From Cellvibrionales bacterium UBA4495 (GTDB taxonomy: Bacteria > Pseudomonadota > Gammaproteobacteria > Pseudomonadales > Porticoccaceae): a DNA stretch of 27,809 bases. The stretch is from assembly GCA_002388905.1 (NCBI GenBank), contig DGNJ01000058.1, positions 29,941 to 57,749 on the forward strand. Reading direction: 5' to 3'. The position numbers and the translations under genes were made by a program. Below the pieces are notes generated by a model. It did no database searches and was not told the DNA's origin. It was given only the letters and a program-made list of their open reading frames with translations. Position 1 is the first letter of the stretch. Each line of letters opens with the position of its first letter. Below are positions 15,119-18,386 of this stretch, piece by piece.

Positions 15119-15633
15119 TCAGAGGTTGCTCAATGGGCTTCTCACCCCGTCGGCGCCCTGTCTGAGCACATGGGTATAGATCTCGGTCGTCTTGACGTCG
15201 GCATGGCCGAGTTGCGACTGAACCGTGCGGAGGTCCGTCCCGGCCTGGAGGAGGTGAGTCGCGAACGAACGCCGCTCAAATTGTCAAGCAGACCCGTCAT
15301 TTCGGCGGTTGTGAGGACAACAGGAAGCTTTCTTTGCCGGGTCGGTCGTGAAAACTGACCCATATCGCCGAGCGGCTGGTCCAGGAACCTGTTGTAGAGA
15401 AAAGCGACTGCATTCAGTGCCGCTGATTGCGTCGAAGGTGACACATGGCGATCCACCGCGAGATAGGTGAGAAAGGCCTCGACTTGCCTCGCACCGATCT
15501 CCCCGGGGTGATTTTTGTTATTGAAAAGGATAAAGTACCTGATCCAGTACAGATACGACTTTATTGTCCGCAAGCTGTAGCCACGGACCCGCATATAATC
15601 CGAAATTGACCGAAGGAATGGCGATGAAGGCAT
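15119..15633 (-). pseudogene. intI: integron integrase IntI, internally deleted and frameshifted
   Basis: The first 119 residues or so, from ATG 15633, match the N-terminal DNA-binding part of IntI: YSLRTIKSYLYWIRYFI, QVEAFLTYLAVDRHVSPST and RQRKLPVVLTTAEM. At about 15270-15281 the frame breaks. The next reading frame on the same strand gives [35 protein letters not shown] and GVRSPLSNL before a TGA at 15119-15121, which is the normal IntI C-terminus with its catalytic Tyr. About 150-160 codons between these parts are missing, including the first catalytic Arg, the Lys and the HxxR histidine. The gene cannot encode an active recombinase. A ribosome site (AAGGGAG) and LexA box remain upstream, so the loss may be fairly recent. 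Confidence 0.93.
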
Positions 15634-15656
15634 ATCGGAACTCCCTTTCCCGAGGA

Positions 15657-15672
15657 CTGTTCAAGTATACAG
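15657..15672 (-). promoter_or_regulatory. LexA (SOS) box controlling intI
   Basis: The sequence CTGT-N8-ACAG, within the wider palindrome ACTGT...ACAGT, matches the gammaproteobacterial LexA consensus. It lies 24-39 bp upstream of the intI ATG, and TATACT inside it on the minus strand could be the intI -10. LexA repression of integron integrases, and their induction in the SOS response, is established for class 1 and Vibrio integrons. Confidence 0.82.
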
Positions 15673-15808
15673 TGGCTGAGCCTCCAGGGCCAAATCAAGC
15701 CAAAAATAAGTGGTCATTTGCCTTTTATTCTTCGGAGGCCTTTTCGATCTATTTTTAATTTCTCCAAAATCAACAGATTATGCCGAATTTGGGTAAAGGG
15801 ATATTTAA

Positions 15809-15826
15809 TAAAAGGTCTACCTTTTA
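15809..15826. repeat. hyphenated palindrome TAAAAGGT/ACCTTTTA in attI region
   Basis: Two perfect 8-bp arms are separated by a 2-nt spacer. It is a possible regulator-binding site or part of the folded attI. There is no T-tract after it, so it is not a terminator. Confidence 0.5.
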
Positions 15827-15834
15827 ATAATTAT

Positions 15835-15855
15835 TATGAGGTCGTTGACCTCATA
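15835..15855. repeat. hyphenated palindrome TATGAGGTC/GACCTCATA beside the cassette insertion point
   Basis: Perfect 9-bp arms flank GTT, ending 7 bp left of the crossover base 15863. It could be an operator for the first cassette gene or an integrase-binding element of attI; the sequence does not decide between these. Confidence 0.6.
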
Positions 15856-15863
15856 AACTGGAG

Positions 15864-16369
15864 TTAAGAGCCGGTCATGATCAGAACTTTGCTTAAAAAA
15901 TGGGACGATTCGCAATTCGATGCAATGGTGAAACAGCGTGTTGGAATTGCCAGGAATTACATAGCCAAAAGTGGAGAACCGACAGAAGATGAGATTGACT
16001 GGGCTTGCAATAGATTTGCTCGTGAATTTGTCTTGAGAAATATTGGTCGAGAAGACTCCGATCAAATTGCACACATAAAGGCAAAGATTCACAATTCAAG
16101 GCAAGGAATTCAGGTATTGTTTCAGGAAGATGGTTATGACGAAAACTTCGCACGAACGCTTTCATTTGTATGTGTTGCCTGGGACTCAGACTCATACAAA
16201 AAGAAAAGACTCAAGCACAATCTCACCCTTAATTATCTGCTTAAAAAGCATACTGATTTCGGTGCATTTTTTACGGAATCACTGCTCCTTAAACAAAACT
16301 CTTAACAAAAGCAGGAAGCGAGAACGACAAACCGTCGCTTCGCTTTAGTTTGTCGCCCTGCTGCGGGCG
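15864..16369 (+). mobile_element. integron cassette 1
   Basis: The cassette runs from the TT of GTTAAGAG (15863-15870) to the G of the next core site GTTAGGC (16369-16375). Its R'' box CTCTTAAC (16299-16306) is the exact reverse complement of its own 5' end over 8 bases, which confirms both limits. It carries one gene. Confidence 0.85.
15877..16305 (+). CDS. hypothetical protein, cassette 1
   Basis: This 142-aa protein of unknown family has no signal peptide or membrane segment. It is rich in charged residues and predicted mostly helical. Features to note are WDDSQFDAMVKQRVGIARNY at the N-terminus, a central acidic and aromatic stretch (QEDGYDENFARTLSFVCVAW) and a basic KKKRLKHNL patch near residues 109-117. 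The start ATG follows AAGAGCC at the cassette's own 5' end, so the core site itself may help to supply the ribosome-binding region. The TAA stop lies inside the attC R'' box. AT content is higher than in the surrounding chromosome, which fits acquisition. I do not recognise it and assign no function. Confidence 0.75.
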   Translation: MIRTLLKKWDDSQFDAMVKQRVGIARNYIAKSGEPTEDEIDWACNRFAREFVLRNIGREDSDQIAHIKAKIHNSRQGIQVLFQEDGYDENFARTLSFVCVAWDSDSYKKKRLKHNLTLNYLLKKHTDFGAFFTESLLLKQNS

Positions 16370-16375
16370 TTAGGC
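16299..16375 (+). repeat. attC site of cassette 1
   Basis: The R'' box CTCTTAAC (16299-16306) and R' box GTTAGGC (16369-16375) bound an imperfect inverted repeat. Inner arms include GCAGG with CCTGC and GACAAAC with GTTTGTC, around a short TCGCTTCGC-type loop. The length is about 77 bp. Confidence 0.87.
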
Positions 16376-17109
16376 AACCTATGAAATTCCGCGACGCTAT
16401 TCGAACCCTATTATCCGGCAAGCCCGAAGGACTTACGCCGCAAGAACTGCGTGACTTGATTAAGGCCAACTACCCAGATCTCTATGGAACAGCTTCGCAT
16501 CGAAGAAATGTCGATAAGGGCCATTACAAAGATTTAGACCACGCGCTACTTGCGCAGATTTATGTAGTGCAGCGAAATGCAACCGACATCTACTCTGACC
16601 GCTCAGAGAAGCCGATGAGATTGAGCCTCGCGGGTGAATGTTCACCTATGCTAGAGAGCGAGGAAGATGTTGAAGATACGATAGCTGCCGAAAACCTAGA
16701 AAAGTTGGAAAAAGGTCAGGGGACGCTATATCTCCTCGGCACTAACCTCTTTACAAAGAACGGGAAGGAGATCGTAAAAATCGGTATCACGACAGGCCCT
16801 GTTCAAGCTAGAATTAATCAACTCTACAATACAAGCGTTCCCTACCGCTTCCGTGTAATTCAGGAAATCGAAACAGCCAGCTACTCTGAATTAGAACAGG
16901 CATTGCACAAGTTGTTTGACCCCTTTCGTATCAACAAGTCCCGAGAATTTTTTAGTGAGGACTGCCTGGAGTTCGTTGATACATTGATTGATATTCACAG
17001 AAAAATTTGTGGTGCGGAGGGTGCCTAACAATTCAATGTTGGCCGACACAGCAAGCGTCGGCTTTGAAAAACAGGCATCAAAACGCTTGCTGTGCAGCAA
17101 ATTGGGGCG
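16370..17109 (+). mobile_element. integron cassette 2
   Basis: The cassette runs from GTTAGGC (crossover after G16369) to G17109 of GTTATGT. The R'' box GCCTAAC (17023-17029) is the exact reverse complement of its 5' end GTTAGGC. It has one gene, starting 11 bp after the cassette boundary. Confidence 0.87.
16381..17028 (+). CDS. GIY-YIG (T5orf172/MUG113-like) domain protein with N-terminal helical domain
   Basis: The C-terminal half (about residues 115-213) reads like the T5orf172 branch of the GIY-YIG fold. It opens with TLYLLGTNLFTKNGKEIVKI, then KIGITTGPVQARINQLYNTS (lysine, glycine and arginine of the fold), a central ELEQALHKLF helix with the conserved Glu and His, and SREFFSED with the REFF motif. 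The N-terminal 80 residues (LTPQELRDLIKANYPDLY, then HRRNVDKGHYKDLDHALLAQ) look like a winged-helix module of the HARE-HTH kind linked to restriction and chromatin proteins. I am less sure of that. Relatives are found in phages and mobile elements, and some act as nucleases. A DNA-processing or defence role is an inference. TAA lies in the attC R'' box. Confidence 0.8.
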   Translation: MKFRDAIRTLLSGKPEGLTPQELRDLIKANYPDLYGTASHRRNVDKGHYKDLDHALLAQIYVVQRNATDIYSDRSEKPMRLSLAGECSPMLESEEDVEDTIAAENLEKLEKGQGTLYLLGTNLFTKNGKEIVKIGITTGPVQARINQLYNTSVPYRFRVIQEIETASYSELEQALHKLFDPFRINKSREFFSEDCLEFVDTLIDIHRKICGAEGA

Positions 17110-17115
17110 TTATGT
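17023..17115 (+). repeat. attC site of cassette 2
   Basis: The R'' box is GCCTAAC (17023-17029) and the R' box is GTTATGT (17109-17115). The inner stem is strong: CACAGCAAGCGT and ACGCTTGCTGTG are perfect 12-bp complements. The length is about 93 bp. Confidence 0.9.
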
Positions 17116-17154
17116 TTCATTTTGAGCTAGCTGCATTTGCTAGGAGGCTTAATT

Positions 17155-17547
17155 TTGAAGGTTAAACAAATTAGCATATTTTTGGTGCTATTTTTTACGA
17201 CTCACTTTTCATCTTCTCATGAGTTAGCTGGATCGACTAGTTGTGATACGACCGGCGTTGGTGCTGGGAATACGGCATCATGCGGTGGGCGCGCGACAGA
17301 ATGTGTTACGACAGGAGTAGGTGCTGGCAACGATGTCGCATGCGGTGGCTTAGCCACGGTCTGCGAAACGACTGGAGTTGGCGCTGGCAATGACGCAGCA
17401 TGCGGGGGTATGGCGACCGAATGTGTTGCGACTGGCGTGGGAGCTGGGAATGATGCTGCATGTGGCGGTCTGGCTACTGGATGTAAAAGTACGGGCGTAG
17501 GTAAAGGAAACGATGTCGCTTGTGGAGGGCCACTAGGTCTTGAATAG
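17155..17547 (+). CDS. secreted protein of five 20-residue two-cysteine repeats
   Basis: This 130-aa protein has a signal peptide of about 22-25 residues (KQISIFLVLFFTTHFSSS). It is followed by five near-identical 20-residue units of the form C-x-x-TGVGAGN-x-x-x-CGG-x-A-T-x. Cysteines fall at 30/43, 50/63, 70/83, 90/103 and 110/123. The start is TTG 17155 because AGGAGG (17142-17147) sits 7 bases upstream; the in-frame TTG at 17137 lacks such a site. The DNA of the repeats differs mainly at third codon positions while the protein repeat is kept, which suggests selection on the protein. The regular cysteine spacing suggests a disulfide-bonded solenoid outside the cytoplasm. I do not recognise the family. 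Antifreeze-like, calcium-binding (GAGND) or adhesive roles are only possibilities. Confidence 0.8.
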   Translation: MKVKQISIFLVLFFTTHFSSSHELAGSTSCDTTGVGAGNTASCGGRATECVTTGVGAGNDVACGGLATVCETTGVGAGNDAACGGMATECVATGVGAGNDAACGGLATGCKSTGVGKGNDVACGGPLGLE

Positions 17548-17887
17548 CGAGCTTTTGGAGAGTGAACTTAATAGACTACAGGAAATAGCAGCCAGCACCC
17601 CGGTCATTAAGAGACTGTGGTTATTTGGCAGCCGCTATAGAATGGACCATAGCCCAGATAGCGATTTGGACATTGCAGTAGAGGTTGAATGGATTGCGGG
17701 ACAAGGCCTGGGCGCCTGCGAAGATCATTTTTCGCTGTGGTGCGCAACAGAGGAGAAGTTCAGAGATGCCATGACTTCTGGGTGTCCATGGGTAATTGAC
17801 ATTCAATGCTATGCGGGTGAAGAAGGGACACCAAACATCCACAGGTACCTGCAATCAGGAAGCAAGTTAATCTACGAAAAAACATAA
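17540..17887 (+). CDS. MNT-type nucleotidyltransferase domain protein
   Basis: This is a 115-aa minimal nucleotidyltransferase. The motif LFGSR at about residues 29-33, followed 10-12 residues later by DSDLDIAVEVE, is the GS...DxD signature of the polymerase-beta fold and supplies two metal-binding aspartates. A third acidic residue is likely in the VIDIQCY strand (Asp near residue 89). Many relatives are the MntA antitoxin partner of HEPN toxins and AMPylate them. No HEPN gene is adjacent here. The start is TTG 17540, with GGAGGG at 17524-17529, and it overlaps the upstream repeat-protein gene by 8 bp, implying coupled translation. TAA lies in the R'' box. Target and partner are unknown. Confidence 0.85.
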   Translation: MNSELLESELNRLQEIAASTPVIKRLWLFGSRYRMDHSPDSDLDIAVEVEWIAGQGLGACEDHFSLWCATEEKFRDAMTSGCPWVIDIQCYAGEEGTPNIHRYLQSGSKLIYEKT

Positions 17888-17939
17888 CAAATACAGGCAG
17901 CGGACGCCAATATCCGCGCCGCTGCTGTAGGCGTTAAGC
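17882..17939 (+). repeat. attC site of cassette 3
   Basis: The R'' box is ACATAAC (17882-17888) and the R' box is GTTAAGC (17933-17939). The inner arms GGCAGCGG and CCGCTGCT surround a short central segment. At about 58 bp it is the shortest attC in the array. Confidence 0.87.
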
Positions 17940-17945
17940 TTCATT

Positions 17946-17987
17946 TGTCCCCTCTGATGCTTACACGGAAACTCTAACCAGGGGACA
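17946..17987 (+). repeat. inverted repeat TGTCCCCT/AGGGGACA in leader of last cassette gene
   Basis: Perfect 8-bp arms (17946-17953 and 17980-17987) are separated by 26 nt and lie 20 nt upstream of the ATG at 18007. It may form a leader hairpin or mark an operator. No function can be read from it. Confidence 0.5.
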
Positions 17988-18006
17988 TCAAAAAGAGGAA
18001 ATAATC

Positions 18007-18234
18007 ATGTTATCAAAAATCGTCGTAAATCTTTACACGGTGCTCCTTGAAATCGGGCTCTGGCTTATTCTTATTGCCGGGTTAATTGGTGGTTGGCAAG
18101 CCGGAGGCTTTTTGGGTGCGATAGGCGGTCTTATTTCATCGGCAATCTTTGGTGCCGTTTTCTTTGGCGCGTTTCTGGTCCTCAATGATATTCGTGCCAG
18201 AGTCAAGGTGATTGAAGAAAGACAACAGACCTAG
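18007..18234 (+). CDS. small two-helix membrane protein, last cassette segment
   Basis: This 75-aa protein has two predicted transmembrane segments, about residues 12-32 (LLEIGLWLILIAGLIGG) and 38-60 (GAIGGLISSAIFGAVFFGAF). A short charged cytoplasmic tail (DIRARVKVIEERQQ) is probably a helix. AGAGGA lies a few bases before ATG 18007, a good ribosome site. Glycine-rich small hydrophobic proteins like this are common in integron cassettes, and none of their roles is settled. It is AT-richer than the chromosome. The TAG stop touches the degraded R''-like box of the final attC. I do not recognise a named family. Confidence 0.75.
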   Translation: MLSKIVVNLYTVLLEIGLWLILIAGLIGGWQAGGFLGAIGGLISSAIFGAVFFGAFLVLNDIRARVKVIEERQQT

Positions 18235-18333
18235 TCTAGACAAGGACGGGCAGCGCGAACGCCAAACCGCCATTCTGTTCCGGTTTGGCGTCCACTGCTT
18301 TCGCCAGCTTCCCCAACGGGTGGACGGCTAGAC
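18234..18333 (+). repeat. degraded terminal attC site
   Basis: The inner arms are strong: ACGCCAAACCG (18259-18269) and CGGTTTGGCGT (18281-18291) are perfect 11-bp complements. The outer boxes are poor: GTCTAGAC (18234-18241) replaces R'' and GCTAGAC (18327-18333), one mismatch from GTTRRRY, replaces R'. It marks the probable right end of the integron. Confidence 0.62.
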
Positions 18334-18386
18334 GCCAATTGCCCGCGAATATTCACGCTCGCTCGTGCACAACCGGTAGCAATTTG

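Follow-up and report, generated by a model that had tools for sequence, protein, structure and literature searches.

The subject of this analysis is a gene cassette in a 27,809-nucleotide stretch of the Cellvibrionales bacterium UBA4495 assembly (contig DGNJ01000058.1), which as a whole is called the window here. The cassette, the third in an integron array, carries a gene for a cysteine-repeat protein (gene 1) followed by a gene for a small nucleotidyltransferase (gene 2). The reading we favour, which we consider probable and by no means secure, is that both genes are full length and likely co-translated, and that they are probably functionally independent: gene 1 would encode an exported protein predicted to fold as a beta-solenoid clamped by disulfides, and gene 2 an MNT-type nucleotidyltransferase that is an orphan and likely active. 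The useful result lies in gene 1, which belongs to a secreted cysteine-repeat family that four libraries do not name and whose pattern predicts its disulfides exactly.

Two genes in one integron cassette

The features on which the argument rests are these.

17110..17933, + strand: cassette 3, the two-gene cassette, delimited by G/TTRRRY boundaries and by a match between its own 5' end and its own R''
17142..17147, + strand: Shine-Dalgarno sequence AGGAGG of gene 1, seven bases upstream of TTG 17155
17155..17547, + strand: gene 1, encoding a 130-residue CGGxA-repeat protein with a TTG start, a hydrophobic N-terminus and five 20-residue units
17540..17887, + strand: gene 2, encoding a 115-residue MNT-fold nucleotidyltransferase from TTG 17540 (alternative TTG 17555), with GSX10DXD and a third acidic residue, D87
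about 17879-17940, + strand: attC of cassette 3 (hairpin z -3.55, with none of 200 shuffles equally stable)

Cassette 3 opens with TTATGT at 17110 and closes with the G at 17933; over 9 nt its start, counted together with the preceding G, matches the cassette's R'' (AAACATAAC, at 17880). The initial annotation had given exactly these limits, and they are upheld both by the boundaries and by the match between the cassette's ends. It had also taken the two genes to move as one unit with no attC between them, and this holds too: attC hairpins stand on both sides (each hairpin in the array was folded as a single strand and scored against 200 dinucleotide shuffles), and there is no room for a further site between the genes. 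Such a match between 5' end and own R'', seen here and in cassette 1, is expected where a cassette has at one time existed as a single circle. Cassette 3 thus resembles other integron gene cassettes in its flanking attC hairpins, its G/TTRRRY boundaries, its orientation and its own-end match, and differs from them in that the integrase at this array is broken.

The translation starts are less uniform. Both genes had been credited with TTG starts and good ribosome sites, which is correct for gene 1; upstream of gene 2, GGAGG lies 11 nt from TTG 17540, a long spacing, and another in-frame TTG, at 17555, falls in the alignment at the initial Met of three of its five close relatives (P0005, P0007 and P0008; P0004 and P0006 start further upstream). 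Because TTG 17555 suits the relatives equally well, the 8-bp overlap described for the two genes is uncertain, standing if translation begins at TTG 17540 and giving way to a 7-bp gap if it begins at TTG 17555. As far as the alignments show, the junction truncates neither product. Gene 1 ends in ACGG and a few residues closing with D or E, as do P0001, P0002, P0009, P0010, P0013 and P0016 (P0011 and P0014 do not), so the junction probably did not shorten it. The pair could be a fairly old operon or the outcome of a lucky junction.

Profiles of both genes were run over 63 loci (L001-L063) at E 0.001, and the two occur together solely in five loci, all of which cover the window's own cassette. 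A partner repeat gene is present at none of the 32 other nucleotidyltransferase loci, and a partner nucleotidyltransferase at none of the six other repeat-gene places in the fetched DNA, two of which are near-identical phages and from which three long-frame RTX-like matches (L029, L033 and L038) were left out. The initial annotation had proposed a new two-component module and had itself named beforehand a lack of co-occurrence as the result that would tell against it; these counts do not support the proposal. Since no second locus among those examined holds both genes, the pair probably travels together by chance, and we regard the pairing as probably incidental. Some features of the comparison limit that conclusion, the test being a fair one and not a strong one. 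Eight of the 32 nucleotidyltransferase loci resemble gene 2 along most of its length (seven at 80 or more of the 113 profile positions, and L027 by tblastn, in an interrupted frame), and the remaining 24 match mainly the catalytic half; at 20 of the 32 the flanks are 1.5 kb or less; and the loci leave out the nearest relatives of both genes, which are metagenomic and lack genomic context (P0001 and P0002 for gene 1, P0004-P0008 for gene 2).

The CGGxA repeat family

The description of gene 1 as a protein with an export-type N-terminus and a disulfide-type repeat is borne out. Behind a hydrophobic segment lie ten cysteines (pairs 30/43, 50/63, 70/83, 90/103 and 110/123) whose spacing alternates strictly between 13 and 7, a pattern well removed from chance. 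The repeats differ mostly at synonymous sites, which marks a constrained protein: counted on the first 18 codons of each unit, synonymous divergence (pS, 0.56-1.15) exceeds nonsynonymous divergence (pN, 0.05-0.34) in all ten repeat pairs, and the repeats are thus under purifying selection. Because pS is near saturation and pN is not, they are likely to be old and kept by selection, not the product of a recent expansion of the DNA. AlphaFold predicts a regular beta-solenoid with two strands per turn (predicted local distance difference test, 75; predicted template modelling score, 0.62), and fold searches with gene 1 returned nothing at E 0.001 or better.

Single-sequence search yielded two relatives of gene 1, and search with a profile into which three IMG/VR proteins had been built yielded 53. 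We coined the name CGGxA repeat family for them after their unit, C-x(8-12)-C-GGxAxx; by its N-terminal pattern the family is secreted or lipoprotein in type, with a hydrophobic N-terminal segment in 50 of the 53 database relatives and a lipobox-like site, by pattern, in 28. Gene 1 has the tandem units, the hydrophobic N-terminus and an array free of unpaired cysteines that define it. In a set of 60 proteins (the database relatives, the window protein, three viral proteins and three genome loci) there are 273 C-x(8-12)-C-G units and not one unpaired cysteine between the first unit and the last. Leaving aside those before the first recognised unit (lipobox, imperfect first units), no cysteine after the first unit falls outside the units in 47 of the 60, and one to three follow the last unit in 13. 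Across 57 proteins the linker CGGxAxxC is constant, the step from CG to the next cysteine being 7 residues in 194 of 202 cases, and the arm between a unit's two cysteines varies, mostly among 9, 10, 11 and 13. Arrays open on a unit's first cysteine and close on its second, except that P0011, P0054 and P0055 finish on a lone first cysteine and P0012 opens on a lone second one. The absence of unpaired cysteines, together with a constant linker and a variable arm, fits disulfide pairing within the unit, and on the simplest reading of these sequences every unit would have a single disulfide bridging a hairpin or beta-arch whose arm varies in length.

None of Pfam, NCBIfam, PADLOC and PHROGs describes this family. 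Precomputed Pfam domains are absent from all 53 database relatives, and nothing convincing emerged when Pfam was run on 13 + 19 members, NCBIfam and PADLOC on the gene 1 protein, and PHROGs on that protein and four relatives; two weak Pfam oddities (Fungus-induced protein at 7.1e-5 in two of the 13, the PSI domain at 0.0029 in one of the 19) are taken as matches of cysteine composition. We found no description of the family, or of the pairing of gene 1 with gene 2, in the open PMC papers searched.

Two known repeat classes invite comparison. The curlin repeats of CsgA are likewise exported tandem repeats of about 20 residues predicted to form beta-arches with two strands per turn, and C-x10-C, the commonest arm in the CGGxA family, is spaced as is the curlin QX10Q kernel (PMC10192328, which also gives the curlin motif N-x-hydrophobic-x-hydrophobic-x-Q). 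CGGxA units, however, have cysteines in place of Asn/Gln ladders and 16-20 residues per unit against about 23, and no Pfam curlin model matched any of the 32 members scanned, even at E 5; by sequence, a curlin assignment of gene 1 was rejected. With RTX repeats gene 1 shares turns rich in Gly, Asn and Asp, and there are weak repeat matches to RTX-like or calcium-binding frames, but every CGGxA unit has two cysteines. An RTX calcium-binding assignment was rejected, Pfam RtxA_C scoring 13.9 bits against a cut-off of 30; the RTX-like matches omitted above are long glycine/aspartate frames without the cysteine pattern.

Members of the family span an integron cassette, phage tail modules, lipoproteins and chromosomal genes. 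Among relatives whose context is known, the closest are found within phage tail-gene modules on three IMG/VR contigs, where they stand alone among the tail genes. At L020 the repeat gene lies between phrog_6367, a conserved phage gene, and the tail terminator, with an opposite-strand open reading frame (ORF) in between; at L019 and its near-twin L021 it lies between two tail assembly genes (the PHROGs scan of the phage loci covered L019 and L020). Searches of 369 class, 214 order and 398 phylum genomes, overlapping sets that include the window's own genome, gave a single chromosomal CGGxA-repeat gene in each of three genomes of one genus in the same phylum (L035, L036 and L037; assemblies of 1.5-1.8 Mb), encoding 243-288 residues with 11 or 12 units. 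In two of these three loci the repeat gene adjoins what we take to be a helicase gene. Among the 214 order genomes the window's own is alone in having the repeat gene. No relative was found in named phages. Plasmids gave 14 weak records (best E 1e-3), whose annotations read transglycosylase or calcium-binding protein, and a plasmid search starting from a lipoprotein relative found nothing. In viral contigs, 28 stretches were checked for the lipoprotein branch, and none was confirmed.

Gene 2 and the rival readings

The assignment of gene 2 to the MNT-type nucleotidyltransferases proved sound. It has a small MNT fold with GSX10DXD, the motif defined for MntA in PMC7641770, and its third acidic residue aligns with the PWxxD stretch of 8xeo. 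The motif is intact in gene 2 and in all five close relatives, with which gene 2 has 40 invariant positions in common at 55-60% identity. These likenesses to HepT/MntA are set against clear differences. Gene 2 has no HEPN gene next door, scores 29.2 bits with the NCBIfam MntA model NF047752 (cut-off 60), and has a distinct C-terminal half (LGxCxxxFxLW, PWxLDLQxY, TPxxHRYL); of the hallmarks of an MntA-type antitoxin from a type VII toxin-antitoxin system it therefore has the motif and lacks the family score and the adjacent HEPN gene. The aminoglycoside nucleotidyltransferases AadA and AAD(9) rank with HepT/MntA among its nearest known counterparts. In PADLOC it matches the candidate PDC-S09 alone (1.6e-8, best over residues 11-49), and gene 1 matches nothing there. 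Among the 369 class genomes, a search with gene 2 at E 1e-8 found its own and one other; among the 214 order genomes at E 1e-3 it found its own and 17 others, those over the catalytic half only.

We rejected gene 2 as half of a HEPN/MNT pair within the cassette, since neither gene 1 nor the neighbouring unit 4 has a HEPN match. A HEPN partner elsewhere, which the initial annotation had advised looking for, was not found either: a genome-wide search with PF01934 gave a single match, on another contig, and this resident HepT, which carries RX4HXY, is paired with its own MNT gene, which overlaps it by 13 bp. With the sole PF01934 HEPN thus provided for, gene 2 is likely an orphan. At the loci of six gene 2 relatives, none of nine neighbouring genes has a HEPN match, with the resident HepT as positive control.

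Two side observations concern these loci. A Comamonas contig carries a diverged relative of gene 2 (L013, 5001-5276) downstream of a presumptive aadA cassette and attC, so other arrays may also harbour small nucleotidyltransferases of this kind. In the surroundings of the resident MNT-HepT pair (L063, 660-2500; G000 contig C60), a short stretch recurs whose frames repeat GAILDREG / IAVEDRSH, and which looks like an interspersed repeat cluster.

On the reading of two independent genes, the N-terminal segment of gene 1 would be removed on export by Sec, each C-x12-C unit would close as a single beta-arch with an internal disulfide, and the five stacked arches would form a rod, located periplasmically or extracellularly. 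Its most likely role would be that of a stable shield or binding element of the envelope or extracellular space, as cargo spread by both phages and integrons. The gene 2 product would stay in the cytoplasm and transfer adenosine monophosphate (AMP) to a protein; HEPN toxins, acted on in trans, are possible targets. That the genes share a cassette would most likely reflect a single attC that came to lie downstream of the pair, and not a module. If CGGxA proteins do alter the envelope or block phage adsorption, that could be tested directly with one small gene.

An unlikely alternative makes gene 2 an antitoxin-like MNT able to neutralise HEPN toxins in trans, with the cassette being anti-addictive and gene 1 a passenger. 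The MNT fold and GSX10DXD of gene 2 are consistent with this, as the motif transfers AMP to the toxin in HepT/MntA (PMC7641770), and the genome does have one HepT with RX4HXY; that HepT, however, already has an overlapping MNT of its own, the low MntA score and differing C-terminal half of gene 2 argue otherwise, and MNT is almost always first in HEPN-MNT dyads, according to PMC3710099, whereas gene 2 is the second gene. We think it quite improbable that the two genes make up a genuine two-component module, in which, for instance, a cytoplasmic nucleotidyltransferase would control or complement an exported shield or effector, possibly against phage. The coupled arrangement within one cassette speaks for a module, as does the standing of gene 1 relatives as extra genes in phage tail modules. 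Both gene 2 and the neighbouring T5orf172 cassette (PDC-S57) match PADLOC candidate classes, and integrons are reported to stock anti-phage systems in their cassettes (PMC12409362); a study reviewed there found anti-phage activity in at least 16 of 179 integron cassettes of V. cholerae. Single-gene PDC candidates come from 'guilt-by-embedding' and mostly await validation (PMC12988326), and signal peptides are predicted in 11.6% of Xanthomonas cassette proteins (PMC12444791). An anti-phage role for either gene would accordingly be plausible. Against a module stand the lack of a second locus with both genes among the 63, the varied neighbours of gene 2 relatives, and products that would act on opposite sides of the membrane.

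It is very unlikely, in our view, that one or both ORFs are non-functional leftovers of a dead integron. The internally deleted integrase and the confinement of the repeat gene to one of the 214 order genomes would suit such decay, but both frames are open and full length, the gene 1 repeats differ mainly at synonymous sites, and gene 2 retains its invariant positions. The boldest proposal, which we put forward as highly speculative, is that CGGxA proteins would form a new class, that of exported beta-arch rods locked by disulfides and covalently equivalent to curli arches, which act as envelope shields spread by phages and integrons, and that one of them is here paired with a nucleotidyltransferase as a two-layer, outside-plus-inside anti-phage module.

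The rest of the array and its integrase

The array has four units beside a damaged integrase, with cassettes 1 and 2 to the left of cassette 3 and unit 4 to its right.

15122..15618, - strand: integron integrase remnant, matching TIGR02249 positions 1-117 and 265-315 in two open frames
15864..16369, + strand: cassette 1, with a 142-residue ORF at 15877-16305 and attC at about 16299-16375
16370..17109, + strand: cassette 2, with a gene for a T5orf172/MUG113 (GIY-YIG type) protein at 16381-17028 and attC at about 17022-17116 (hairpin folded over 17022-17118)
17934..18344 (right end approximate), + strand: unit 4, with a hydrophobic 75-residue ORF at 18007-18234 and a degenerate attC-like hairpin

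The two integrase pieces adjoin, the N-terminal third at 15268-15618 and the C-terminal part at 15122-15274, and the middle (about model positions 118-264) is absent. No full-length integron integrase scores above the curated TIGR02249 cut-off anywhere in the genome (assembly 92.8% complete), so this is not an active integron by that measure, and because the integrase has lost its middle the array is probably frozen. Broken integrases are common in Xanthomonas, according to PMC12444791. A close plasmid-borne copy of the array was sought at the nucleotide level, and none was found.

In cassette 1 the own 5' end matches the own R'' over 8 nt, and two of 200 shuffles equal its attC hairpin (z -3.07). 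Cassette 2 is marked by TTAGGCA at 16370 and TGCCTAAC at 17022, with a hairpin (z -3.34) that none of 200 shuffles matched; its protein matches Pfam MUG113 (9.2e-15) and T5orf172 (7.2e-13) and PADLOC PDC-S57 (1.4e-22), and has relatives 45-46% identical on two Burkholderia/Paraburkholderia plasmids. Unit 4 begins with TTAAGC after the attC of cassette 3 and shows no R'' match to its own 5' end; its hairpin (z -2.58) lacks a canonical GTTRRRY end, so the unit may no longer be mobile. A promoter search of 15640-18350 gave one sigma-70-like site, outside cassette 3, against 3.8 expected, and Rfam at gathering thresholds gave nothing in the window. A perfect 10-bp inverted repeat (TTATGAGGTC / GACCTCATAA) occupies 15834-15856, just 5' of where the first cassette begins (15864); it may belong to the attI region or serve as an operator.
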